The position numbers were made by a program, and so were the translations under genes. The notes under the pieces are model-generated. The model saw nothing but the letters and a program-made list of their open reading frames with translations. It made no database searches and was not told the DNA's origin. Source: Bacteroidota bacterium (GTDB lineage Bacteria; Bacteroidota; Bacteroidia; Chitinophagales; Chitinophagaceae). From it: DNA of 64,000 nt. Shown here in pieces: positions 24,412 through 33,721 of this stretch. Numbering within the stretch: position 1 is the first letter of the stretch; the number at the start of each line of letters is the position of its first letter. Location of the stretch: assembly GCA_018267955.1 (NCBI GenBank), contig JAFDXL010000002.1, forward strand, positions 124,001 through 188,000. The letters are read 5' to 3'.

Positions 24412-25782
24412 TTAGAAATTAACGCACTTTTCAGGATAGTTAACAGCATGCTTGTATACCAGGTTGCGTATGAAGTCATTGTCAGGCATTGGTTCCAGCT
24501 GCTCCTGCAATTGATCGATATCGTCAGGCAACACGCCATCCTTCAGATAGCCCATACCGTAGAAGTTACCTTTCCTTACCAGGATGCAACTCTGCTCATC
24601 CTCTGCAATGCCCTTGTCTATAAAAGCAAAAGTTGGTAACTGCTTTTGCAGCCAATTAACTGCATCATCCACTCTATTGTTATATTCATCGATATGAAGC
24701 AGCGCACTACATTCACCGGTGCAGCTATCTGCAAATACACCTTTGCTACAGTCGGCACTCTTTGCCAGGTTGCATAAACGTGCGCACAATCCAAATTCAC
24801 TGATCATTTCCCGCAGGCGGTTATGGCCTTCTATCAAAGTATTGAAAGTATGGATCGGCTTGAAGTAGTGCTTATTTTTCTCAATAGCAAAGCGTTTGTA
24901 TCCCTGCCTGTCTTCGTAAACAAACAGGCCAAATTTAGGCAGGTATCCCCGCTGGCTGCGATTGTATATAGGCCACAGGCGACGTATCTCCGTACTTTCC
25001 AGTATATGTGCCATCAGGTCTGTTGCACATTCTTTATAGCTGATGCGGTGAATGTCTCTCAGGAAATCCTGCTTTTGCTTGCCCGCCTTATTATTGCTGA
25101 AGTGGCTGCGTACCCGGCGCGACAAGTTCTTAGCCTTACCCACGTACACTACTTTACCAGTATTGTTATAGAAGTAATACACACCCGGCTGTTTCGGTAA
25201 GCGTTCTACTTCTTCCACAGGCACATGCGGCGGCAGGTATTGCTCGCTGTTACGTCCCTTCAGCATGGCAGCTATTACACCTTCGGCATCTTTCTCTAAC
25301 AACATGCTGAATAATTCGGCAGTAGCCAATGCGTCGCCACCTGCGCGGTGATGATTGGTAAGATTGATGCCTAACTGGTGGCAAAGCTTGCCGAGGCCAT
25401 AACTACGATAACCCGGTATGATCTTGCGCGCCAGGCGTATGGTACATAGCTTGCGCGTAGTAAGCTCATAGCCTGCAGACTCCATCTGGTATTTGAGGAA
25501 AGAATAGTCGAAATTGACATTGTGCGCTACAAATATCTTGTCCTGCAGCAACTCATGTATCTGCCCGGCTACCTCTGCAAATGATGGTGCATGCGCTACC
25601 ATTTCGTTAGTAATGCCCGTAAGCTTCTGGATGAAGAATGGGATGGGATTTTGAGGGTTGAGAAGCGTCTCATAAAAATGGATCACTTGCCTGCCGTCAT
25701 GTATCGCAATTGCTATCTCGGTAATGCCGTTGCTGGAGGCAAAACTTCCCGTGGTCTCAATATCTACAATAGCGTACAACAT
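24412..25782 (-). CDS. DEDD exonuclease fused to a GIY-YIG nuclease domain
   Basis: A 456-residue fusion. Residues 1-165 are a DnaQ/epsilon-like 3'-5' exonuclease (YAIVDIETTGSF with the DxE motif, FVAHNVNFDYSFLKYQM, NHHRAGGDALATAEL). Residues about 195-275 are a GIY-YIG nuclease of the UvrC/Cho type (LPKQPGVYYFYNNTGKVVYVGKAKNLSRRVRSHFS). The tail has several Cys residues (CARLCNLAKSADCSKGVFADSCTGECSAL), resembling the Cys-rich linker of UvrC homologues. The fusion is known in Bacteroidota and is often labelled exonuclease or DNA polymerase III subunit epsilon. A role in DNA repair, for example incision followed by trimming, is inferred. A near-consensus -7 box (TATCTTTA, 25792-25799) lies just upstream. 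Confidence 0.9.
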   Translation of the reverse strand: MLYAIVDIETTGSFASSNGITEIAIAIHDGRQVIHFYETLLNPQNPIPFFIQKLTGITNEMVAHAPSFAEVAGQIHELLQDKIFVAHNVNFDYSFLKYQMESAGYELTTRKLCTIRLARKIIPGYRSYGLGKLCHQLGINLTNHHRAGGDALATAELFSMLLEKDAEGVIAAMLKGRNSEQYLPPHVPVEEVERLPKQPGVYYFYNNTGKVVYVGKAKNLSRRVRSHFSNNKAGKQKQDFLRDIHRISYKECATDLMAHILESTEIRRLWPIYNRSQRGYLPKFGLFVYEDRQGYKRFAIEKNKHYFKPIHTFNTLIEGHNRLREMISEFGLCARLCNLAKSADCSKGVFADSCTGECSALLHIDEYNNRVDDAVNWLQKQLPTFAFIDKGIAEDEQSCILVRKGNFYGMGYLKDGVLPDDIDQLQEQLEPMPDNDFIRNLVYKHAVNYPEKCVNF

Positions 25783-25799: not shown

Positions 25800-26057
25800 T
25801 AAACTTCAGGCTCGCTAAACAAGCAATATTATTATTTATAATCAAATAATTAGATATGATACAATATCCAATTTGTTAGAAAATGTTAGTTTTTGCTAGT
25901 CTTTTAAGGCTTTTAGTTTTCTTGAGTGCGGATATGAAATTGGTTAGGGTTTATATGTCAAAGAACTGCTACAAAATTAACGCTTTTTGAAGAGGTAATA
26001 AAAATTATAAGTAAGCCATTAAGCGGTTGCGGTAGCCAACTTTATCTGATTTATAAT
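25800..26057. other. Intergenic AT-rich stretch without a recognisable gene
   Basis: Between the exonuclease gene and the CLC leader I find no open frame of convincing length and no strong hairpin. The sequence is AT-rich. Confidence 0.5.
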
Positions 26058-26065
26058 TATATTTG
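26058..26065 (+). promoter_or_regulatory. -7 promoter element of the fluoride-responsive transcript
   Basis: TATATTTG fits TAnnTTTG and lies 8 bases before the start of the riboswitch stem, so transcription would begin at about 26070 and include the whole aptamer. Confidence 0.7.
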
Positions 26066-26073
26066 CCGCAGTA

Positions 26074-26128
26074 AGGAAATGGTGTCTTCCTGTTATAAAC
26101 CGCTTAAAAGAAGCTGATGGCGCCTGCA
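26074..26128 (+). promoter_or_regulatory. Fluoride riboswitch (crcB motif)
   Basis: The leader of the CLC gene folds as the crcB RNA. Stem P1 is AGGAA (26074-26078) with TTCCT (26087-26091). Its loop ATGGTGTC (26079-26086) contains the pseudoknot strand. Stem P2 is GCTT (26102-26105) with AAGC (26111-26114). The conserved segment CTGATGG follows, and GGCGCC (26119-26124) pairs with GGTGTC (26081-26086) to make a six-pair pseudoknot with two G-U pairs. The joining AAACCGC and trailing CCTGCAGA also match known examples such as the Pseudomonas syringae RNA as I recall it. The class binds fluoride through magnesium ions and turns on genes for fluoride export. The gene content downstream (CLC-F-like, pyrophosphatase) agrees. 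Confidence 0.9.
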
Positions 26129-26166
26129 GACCGCAACTATATGTTGCCTAATCGTTTAATGCAGGT
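26123..26166 (+). promoter_or_regulatory. Likely expression platform: start-site sequestration
   Basis: CCTGCA (26123-26128), which overlaps the pseudoknot strand, is complementary to TGCAGG (26160-26165), which ends one base before the ATG at 26167 and contains the only AGG-like ribosome-binding bases. A small hairpin, GCAAC (26133-26137) with GTTGC (26143-26147), lies between. No T-run follows, so translational rather than transcriptional control is inferred. Confidence 0.6.
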
Positions 26167-27507
26167 ATGAAAAAAATATACGCTTCGGAATTCAGCTACA
26201 TTATCCGTCATTTAGTAAAATGGACTGTTATTGCCATCCCAGTATCGCTTATAGTGGGGTCGCTGGTTGCGTTGTTCCTGTACCTGCTTGATGAATCCAC
26301 AAAATTTCGCTGGCAACATTCCTGGTTGTTATTCCTGCTGCCGGTTGCCGGCGTGGGCATCCATTTTCTGTATAAACTATGGGGTAAAAATGCAGAAGCC
26401 GGTAACAACCTGATCATGGATGAGATACATGAGCCAGGCGGTGGTGTACCAACGCGCATGGCGCCGTTGGTGCTTATCACCACGATCATTACCCACCTGT
26501 TTGGCGGATCTGCCGGAAGAGAAGGTACGGCGGTGCAGATAGGTGGCAGCATGGCGCAATTGCTGGGCAAATGGTTCAAGCTGGATAAGCAAGACATTCG
26601 CATCCTACTCATCACCGGTATTGCAGCAGGTTTCGGAGCAGTGTTTGGCACACCGCTAACAGGCGCCATATTTGCACTGGAAGTATTAGCTATCGGGCGT
26701 ATACAATACAATGCTTTGATCCCATCGTTTATCGCATCGGTATTTGCAGACATTGTGTGCACGGCATGGGGCATTCATCACACGCACTACCAGATCAGCC
26801 TTCCCGCGTTTCATCTGCAGCAGGCATATGCAGGCAGCTACCTTCTGCTTTTGGCAAAGGCCGTACTTGCAGGGGCCGCGTTCGGGCTGGCGAGCTACCT
26901 GTTTGCCTGGCTATCTCATAATATAAGCAAGACGAGCAAAGCATATATACCCAAACACCAGTGGCTGATACCTGCCATAGGGGGGCTAGCCATCATAGGA
27001 TTGACCTATGCACTGGGCACGGAAGACTACCTGGGACTTGGCGTAACCTCTAAATATCCTAATGGCATATCCATAGTAAACGCATTTCATGCGGGCGGAG
27101 TAACAGACTTTAGCTGGCTGTGGAAGATCATCTTTACAGCGATTACGCTTGGTACCGGCTTTAAAGGCGGGGAAGTGACCCCGTTATTTTTCATTGGGGC
27201 TGCGTTGGGTAATACAATAGCCGCTTATTCAGGCGCACCGACAGACCTGTTTGCAGGACTTGGTTTTATAGCTGTATTTGCCGGCGCTACCAACACACCT
27301 ATTGCCTGCACCTTGATGGGCATAGAACTATTTGGCGGAGAACATGTGCTGTTTTACGCCATTGCATGTTTTACCGCCTACTATTTCAGCGGGCATTCGG
27401 GTATATACAAAGCGCAGCGCATAGCAGTTACCAAAAAGGGCACTCTTCGCTACCCGGAGCAGGCATTAGAAAAACTGCAGGATTATAAAAAAGATGATAT
27501 AAGATAA
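26167..27507 (+). CDS. CLC-F type fluoride/proton antiporter
   Basis: A 446-residue CLC-family membrane protein with the conserved elements GNNLI (79-83), GREGT (117-121, with the gating glutamate Glu119), [12 protein letters not shown] and [13 protein letters not shown]. In chloride-type CLCs the first motif is usually GSGIP with a serine that coordinates chloride. The Asn-bearing GNNLI and the GREGT form are what I know from CLC-F transporters that expel fluoride in exchange for protons. Its mRNA carries a crcB riboswitch, which strongly supports fluoride as the substrate. Located in the inner membrane. Pyrophosphatase, an enzyme inhibited by fluoride, is encoded 69 bases downstream. A chloride/proton function is the alternative. 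Confidence 0.88.
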
Positions 27508-27543: not shown

Positions 27544-27551
27544 TAGCTTTG
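27544..27551 (+). promoter_or_regulatory. -7 promoter element before the pyrophosphatase gene
   Basis: TAGCTTTG lies 25 bases before the ppa ATG, so ppa may have its own promoter in addition to read-through from the CLC gene. Confidence 0.5.
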
Positions 27552-32541: not shown

Positions 32542-32623
32542 TGCCCTTTATTAATAATGATAATTTCCCAATTCACACAGGAACTAAGTAGTTAAATTGC
32601 AGCCTGTTAATACAAGCTGCAGC

Positions 32624-33721
32624 ATGGCATCTCACAAAGCCGAACATCTGAAAGAAGTAGCTAAGCTATTTTTGAAACTAGGGATCATAGGATTTGGAGG
32701 CCCTGCCGTGCATATTGCATTAATGCAAAAGGAAGTAGTAGAAAAGAGGCAATGGATGAGCCATGAACACTTCATGGATCTTGTGGGCGCTACCAACCTG
32801 ATACCCGGCCCCAACTCTACCGAAATGACCATGCATTGCGGACATGAACATGCCGGCTGGCAAGGCCTTGTGGTGGCGGGTTTCTGCTTCATCATGCCGG
32901 CAGTGCTGATAACAGGTACACTGGCATGGGCGTATCAAACCTACGGCAGCCTGCCCGAAGTAGCCCCATTTTTGTATGGCATTAAGCCTGCCATCATAGC
33001 CGTGATCATATCTGTGATGATAACCCTGTGTAAAAAGGCATGGAAGAATACCACATTGGGTATCATCGGGATAGCGGCTGCTATAATCGCACTTTTGGGC
33101 GTCAATGAGATAGCAGTATTATTTGGCGCCGGAGCAATAGGTATGCTGTTGCAATCCATAAAACACAATCGCAGCCTTAGCGTAGTTGCGCCGGTTACGC
33201 TGCCGGCAGCTAAGTTATTCTCGATATTCCTGAAGATAGGCGCGATATTATATGGGAGTGGCTATGTGCTATTTTCTTTCATGGATAGTGAACTGGTAGC
33301 AAAGGGTATATTAAGCCGTCAACAACTGATAGATGCCATAGCAGTAGGACAATTTACGCCGGGGCCGGTATTTTCCGCTGCCACCTTCATAGGCTGGCAA
33401 ATAGGTGGCATCGGCGGCGCGGCCGCAGCAACGCTGGGCATTTTCCTTCCGTCATTCTTATTCGTAGCCTTGCTGAACCCGCTAATACCTAAGCTGCGCC
33501 GATCAAAGATAATGGCTGCATTTCTTGATACGGTAAATATTGTATCTGTAGCATTGATACTGGTGACCTGCATCAATATGGGACGCGATGCCATACAAGA
33601 CTGGCGTACGATCACTATAGCGATATTGAGTTTTGCGACGACGATAGCCTTCAAAAAACTCAATACCGCGTTTATAATAATAGGCGGTGCCTGCCTTGGA
33701 TATTTGTTACAGCTTTTCTAA
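32624..33721 (+). CDS. chrA: Chromate transporter family protein (ChrA)
   Basis: A 365-residue inner-membrane protein of the CHR family, counted from the ATG at 32624; a TTG at 32597 would add nine residues. It is a two-domain (long) CHR protein. The first half starts with FLKLGIIGFGGPAVHIALMQKE and has NLIPGPNSTEMTM; the second half repeats the pattern with FLKIGAILYGSGYVLFSF and GQFTPGPVFSAATFIGW. Long CHR proteins export chromate by a proton-linked mechanism, but some relatives act on other anions. No chromate-response regulator is adjacent. The gene lies between the GNAT gene and the convergent VOC gene. Confidence 0.9.
   Translation: MASHKAEHLKEVAKLFLKLGIIGFGGPAVHIALMQKEVVEKRQWMSHEHFMDLVGATNLIPGPNSTEMTMHCGHEHAGWQGLVVAGFCFIMPAVLITGTLAWAYQTYGSLPEVAPFLYGIKPAIIAVIISVMITLCKKAWKNTTLGIIGIAAAIIALLGVNEIAVLFGAGAIGMLLQSIKHNRSLSVVAPVTLPAAKLFSIFLKIGAILYGSGYVLFSFMDSELVAKGILSRQQLIDAIAVGQFTPGPVFSAATFIGWQIGGIGGAAAATLGIFLPSFLFVALLNPLIPKLRRSKIMAAFLDTVNIVSVALILVTCINMGRDAIQDWRTITIAILSFATTIAFKKLNTAFIIIGGACLGYLLQLF

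Follow-up and report, generated by a model that had tools for sequence, protein, structure and literature searches.

A fluoride riboswitch ahead of a CLC-F gene in a Bacteroidota bacterium, with a predicted OFF stem that abuts the start codon

INTRODUCTION

The crcB fluoride riboswitch of B. cereus switches through an overlap between its pseudoknot and its expression platform (PMC11077080). Translational fluoride riboswitches also exist, in Pseudomonas syringae and Burkholderia pseudomallei (PMC13273304). Bacteroidetes are without Shine-Dalgarno (SD) sequences, and the structure of the start region tunes their translation initiation (PMC6847099). Among fluoride exporters, CLC-F proteins carry the signatures GNNLI/GMGLI, GREGT/V, and GEVTP (PMC11139923), and the FRM fluoride operon of Enterobacter cloacae comprises crcB, ppaC, eno, and others (PMC5533749). 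The riboswitch class, the gene type, the link with pyrophosphatase, and translational fluoride riboswitches are known.

Here, we analyze a locus from a Bacteroidota genome that combines these elements, and compare it with the fluoride-riboswitch loci of its bacterial family. The family-wide platform that abuts the start codon is the less familiar part of this locus and, in our view, a modestly interesting one. No mention of Bacteroidetes was found in PMC13273304 or PMC11077080, and a literature search of incomplete coverage found no earlier description of a start-abutting platform, which, given that coverage, is only weak evidence of novelty.

RESULTS

We detected a fluoride riboswitch in the leader of a CLC gene within the window, that is, the whole 64,000-nucleotide stretch of DNA that was analyzed. 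Positions 26066-26133 match the Rfam fluoride riboswitch family RF01734 with 48.5 bits (E 2.2e-10; model positions 1-64 of 64; cmscan), above the curated gathering score of 34 bits and with the whole model covered. This is the sole Rfam match above the gathering score in a covariance search of the whole 64-kb window, and no second fluoride riboswitch match was found in the 4.18-Mb genome, in which the element is single copy. Being alone at both scales, the match cannot be attributed to chance. The parts of the leader are as follows.

26058-26065, + strand: TATATTTG, a Bacteroidota -7 promoter box (TAnnTTTG), by sequence and family conservation
26066-26133, + strand: fluoride riboswitch aptamer, by the RF01734 match
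26074-26091, + strand: P1 hairpin, AGGAA (26074-26078) paired with TTCCT (26087-26091); its loop holds the 5' pseudoknot strand (26081-26086)
26102-26114, + strand: P2 hairpin, GCTT (26102-26105) paired with AAGC (26111-26114)
26113-26120: conserved segment GCTGATGG, by a base-by-base check
26119-26124, + strand: 3' pseudoknot strand GGCGCC, which pairs with 26081-26086 (GGTGTC)

A preliminary description, made from the sequence alone, had proposed a crcB-motif fluoride riboswitch before a CLC gene at 26167, with P1, P2, the conserved segment, a six-pair pseudoknot, and a promoter box 8 bases before P1. Each of these parts was recovered where it had been placed, and the Rfam covariance search suggested there gave a significant match. 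The gene is more precisely of the CLC-F type, an identity that fits fluoride control. The expression platform and the pyrophosphatase gene, both covered below, are additions to that description.

The P1, P2, and pseudoknot pairs of the RF01734 class are all present, and the leader lies upstream of a fluoride export/tolerance gene (CLC-F, 26167-27507). The pseudoknot consists of six pairs, two of which are G-U. Across the bacterial family, 88 fluoride-riboswitch loci were usable, 66 of them ahead of CLC genes; each of the six positions is standard-paired in 84 to 88 of the loci. The two strands also covary across these 88 loci; for example, GGTGTC/GGCGCC is replaced by GGAGTT/GACTCC. On sequence evidence, the assignment of the leader as a genuine fluoride riboswitch of the known class RF01734 is well supported. 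It is very improbable that the leader is instead a decayed or nonswitching relic before a constitutively made CLC-F. Such a relic might be suspected from P2, a helix of just four pairs, half of them A-U, that is missing from the minimum free energy (MFE) fold; however, the bit score is well over the cut-off, every core position is retained, and in the relative locus L002 the leader is kept through the aptamer and the OFF stem described below, although the flanking bases differ.

P1 begins 8 bases after TATATTTG, and this promoter box is conserved in L002. An exact TAnnTTTG is found upstream of P1 in 57 of the 88 family loci, nearly always 4-18 nt away, compared with only 2-4 of 88 in displaced control windows. 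No clear -33 box was seen upstream of TATATTTG. We infer that transcription starts a few bases past the box, such that the RNA would begin almost at P1.

A separate complementarity was observed around the promoter. Ahead of the promoter box, the sequence AAGCGGTT (about 26021-26028) is exactly complementary to AACCGCTT (26098-26105, the J1/2-P2 stretch). This complement is kept in L002, although its origin is perhaps chance. The pairing was set aside because AAGCGGTT lies upstream of the presumed RNA start.

The gene behind the leader was assigned from its translation.

26167-27507, + strand: clcF/eriC-F, a CLC-F-type fluoride/proton antiporter of 446 aa, by PF00654, the 6D0J match, and signatures

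The product is a Voltage_CLC protein (PF00654, E 2e-71). Among solved structures, those of the F-/H+ antiporter, 6D0J, 6D0K, and 6D0N, match it best (E about 1e-61; 2e-61 for 6D0J), whereas Cl-/H+ exchangers of the ClcA type score only about 1e-7, which places the product closer to CLC-F than to the Cl-/H+ exchangers. All three CLC-F signatures, GNNLI, GREGT, and GEVTP, occur in the translation (the last read within KGGEVTPLF). Throughout the family, CLC genes behind riboswitches encode GREG[TV] and GEVTP in 66 of 66 cases and a GNNLI-type motif in 62 of 66. We predict with high confidence that 26167-27507 encodes a CLC-F F-/H+ antiporter.

No CrcB/Fluc gene was found in the genome, in which CLC-F is the only recognizable fluoride exporter. 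Two further CLC genes are present, on contig C10; the other CLCs found across the genus reach only 23-28% identity to the CLC-F of the window. The riboswitch and CLC-F occur together in 2 of 15 genus genomes and Fluc in exactly the other 13, and no fluoride riboswitch was found in those 13 Fluc-bearing genomes. This pattern fits exporter replacement in one lineage. As the two CLC-F genomes are sisters, the exclusion counts as one event and not as a statistic. It is very improbable that the gene exports chloride or another anion and that its fluoride control is incidental. The broad Voltage_CLC family to which it belongs would permit this reading, but the proximity of the product to the solved F-/H+ antiporter, the full set of signatures, the low identity of the other genus CLCs, and the way in which CLC-F takes the place of Fluc in the genus all argue against it.

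From the 3' edge of the aptamer up to the gene, a competing structure is predicted.

26123-26128, + strand: 5' arm of the OFF (anti-aptamer) stem, CCTGCA, in the MFE and centroid folds; conserved and covarying in the family
26133-26147, + strand: inner hairpin GCAAC/GTTGC (26133-26137 with 26143-26147), enclosed by the OFF stem; from the fold, and identical in L002
26160-26165, + strand: 3' arm of the OFF stem, TGCAGG, ending one base before the start codon

In both the MFE and the centroid fold of the leader, 26122-26128 is paired with 26160-26166, immediately upstream of the AUG (26167). The OFF stem has six pairs, or seven when G26122-U26166 is counted. Its 5' arm takes up base 26125 along with the final two bases of the pseudoknot strand, and because of this sharing the pseudoknot fold and the OFF fold are mutually exclusive. 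Base 26125 corresponds to the linchpin of the class, which is U48 in the numbering of PMC11077080. The stem is thus an alternative to the pseudoknot and at the same time overlies the region where the ribosome starts, as a translational platform would. As the expression platform runs to the start codon, the functional unit of the riboswitch reaches at least 26166, a small addition to the preliminary description.

No terminator U-run follows the OFF stem in the window, where AUGAAAAAAAUAU is found instead, and for this reason an intrinsic terminator platform (GC-rich stem plus U-run) was rejected. The OFF stem of the window is short (6-7 bp), with a shuffle P of 0.07 when a stem is sought anywhere. 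A crude constrained fold of the ligand-locked state opens the -15 to +3 region in 51 of 61 family leaders but leaves that of the window unchanged (0.51 versus 0.52), so that it is uncertain how strongly the leader in the window would switch.

Across the family, the position of the OFF stem is conserved. In 62 of the 66 CLC leaders, a stem of 5 bp or more stops 0-6 nt short of an in-frame start. In 61 of these 62, the stem at this position reaches 6 bp or more, compared with 0.3% of shuffled leaders. All 62 leaders have a standard fourth pair even though both of its sides vary; mapped on the protein tree, this pair has four same-branch compensatory changes versus 1.2 expected. The arms of a leader also pair better with each other than with arms swapped between leaders (0.749 versus 0.653, sd 0.017). 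In Fluc leaders, the start codon lies inside the arm in 9 of 11 cases, with 7-9 of the 9 positions of ATGNNCAGG paired to the edge of the aptamer. The corresponding stem of most Proteobacteria sits some 50-60 nt ahead of the start, and Clostridium relatives of CLC-F have a U-run after their stem. The nearest relative is the metagenome-assembled genome Bacteroidetes bacterium 43-93 (95% protein identity).

From these data, we consider it rather probable that this Bacteroidota family has a distinct and conserved SD-less platform. In this platform, the 3' edge of the pseudoknot would find its partner strand directly before the start codon in CLC-F leaders and across the start codon in Fluc leaders, where the first codons, ATGNNCAGG, would double as an RNA arm and a Met-Xaa-Arg N-terminus.

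It is unlikely, though far from negligible, that a genuine fluoride riboswitch here controls transcription, through intrinsic or Rho-dependent termination or mRNA decay, and not access to the start codon. Transcriptional members exist in the class (PMC11077080), the Clostridium relatives have a U-run behind the stem, and Rho-dependent termination or mRNA decay could possibly act through the same OFF stem. However, the presence of AUGAAAAAAAUAU in place of a U-run speaks against an intrinsic terminator, and two family traits point to initiation: the arm has a fixed place with respect to the start codon, and in Fluc leaders it includes the AUG.

The survey also returned loci of other arrangements. 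In five family genomes, a second fluoride riboswitch lies about 2.7 kb from the first (loci L152, L157, L166, L172, and L184 in genomes G062, G145, G254, G208, and G237, respectively). It precedes an MFS transporter gene (PF07690 in L152) with a shared SDMTYEAARSING-type N-terminus; at these MFS-gene riboswitches, no OFF stem was found near the start. The MFS gene is possibly an under-described fluoride-associated gene. In L141, L155, and L195 (G258, G244, and G281), the usual stem and start codon are followed by a reading frame of 32-47 aa before another gene. This short frame resembles the CLC-F N-terminus in L141 and L195, the next gene is crcB-like in L141 and L155, and the frame appears to be either a leader peptide or what is left of a CLC-F. 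In L098, crcB is preceded by just ATG AAA TAA, and in L149 (G196) a Na+/H+ exchanger gene (PF00999) stands directly behind the fluoride riboswitch. In three Clostridium CLC-F loci (L051, L057, and L060), another fluoride riboswitch lies some 3 kb downstream and is encoded on the opposite strand.

A pyrophosphatase gene follows clcF.

27544-27551, + strand: TAGCTTTG, a likely separate ppa promoter box (TAnnTTTG), conserved in L002, with similarly placed boxes in L187 and L181
27577-28113, + strand: ppa, family I inorganic pyrophosphatase of 178 aa (PF00719, E 1e-60), 69 bp downstream of the CLC-F gene

Inorganic pyrophosphatase is a fluoride-sensitive enzyme. The order riboswitch-CLC-F-ppa recurs, in other genera too: it is seen in L002, L187, and L181 and, by coordinates, in genomes G010, G182, and G014; in L088, the order is riboswitch-crcB-ppa with a 5-nt gap. 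Thus, ppa is a probable functional partner of CLC-F and probably helps to replace the fluoride-inhibited enzyme. Expression by read-through and from its own promoter are both possible, and the gene's own box makes co-regulation with CLC-F, as read from the sequence, no firmer than likely. No synteny was found between the ppa of the window and genus ppa or crcB loci. Its reading as a clear xenolog was rejected, since it is 68-70% identical to its counterparts in the genus and up to 72% identical to those of other genera, a difference too small to be decisive.

Elsewhere in the window, a divergent upstream gene (24412-25782, - strand) encodes a DEDD exonuclease fused to a GIY-YIG (UvrC/Cho-like) domain, and 32597-33721 encodes, by the look of its translation, a membrane protein of the chromate-transporter type.

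DISCUSSION

The locus is, very probably, an RF01734 riboswitch placed before CLC-F, the sole recognizable fluoride exporter of the cell. The riboswitch would act by occlusion and release of the start region, with ppa as a probable helper of the exporter. A translational OFF-to-ON switch that hides an SD-less start region is the most likely mode of action, and is favored by the dependence of initiation on start-region structure in Bacteroidetes, which have no SD sequence (PMC6847099).

Without fluoride, the pseudoknot would not be held, and CCUGCA (26123-26128) would pair with UGCAGG (26160-26165), a pairing indicated by sequence, fold, and family covariation. The OFF stem and inner hairpin, extending up to the AUG, would then block initiation. 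As in the known class, Mg2+ and F- are expected to bind and hold the pseudoknot (26081-26086 with 26119-26124), preventing the OFF stem. The start region would be freed and CLC-F made, and, by analogy with its family, this protein would expel F- in exchange for H+.

The analysis gives both the leader and the CLC gene a function with high confidence. The family survey provides a testable model for riboswitch control of initiation in a phylum without SD sequences. It further suggests that an RNA switch constrains the N-terminal codons of Fluc. The strict exclusion between Fluc and riboswitch-borne CLC-F in one genus gives a compact case of apparent exporter replacement together with the gain of regulation.

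The B. cereus crcB riboswitch, also a member of RF01734, shares with the window P1, P2, the pseudoknot, the conserved segment, and a platform that overlaps the 3' pseudoknot strand, such that the two folds exclude each other. It differs in forming an intrinsic terminator, whereas the competing stem of the window stops at the start codon with no U-run behind it. The P. syringae and B. pseudomallei riboswitches (PMC13273304) are similar in that no intrinsic termination is expected; their control is at the level of translation, as is probable for the window. In proteobacterial relatives of CLC-F, the aptamer-overlapping stem is mostly some 50-60 nt upstream of the start, while that of the window abuts it.

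The CLC-F of Enterococcus casseliflavus (6D0J) is homologous to that of the window over 401 residues and has the same GREG and GEVTP cores, but the selectivity motif is GNNLI in the window and GMNLV in the aligned E. casseliflavus segment. The E. cloacae FRM operon likewise brings together a riboswitch-controlled exporter and a pyrophosphatase. There, Fluc and a Mn-dependent PpaC belong to one operon, whereas here CLC-F is accompanied by a family I Ppa with its own promoter box.
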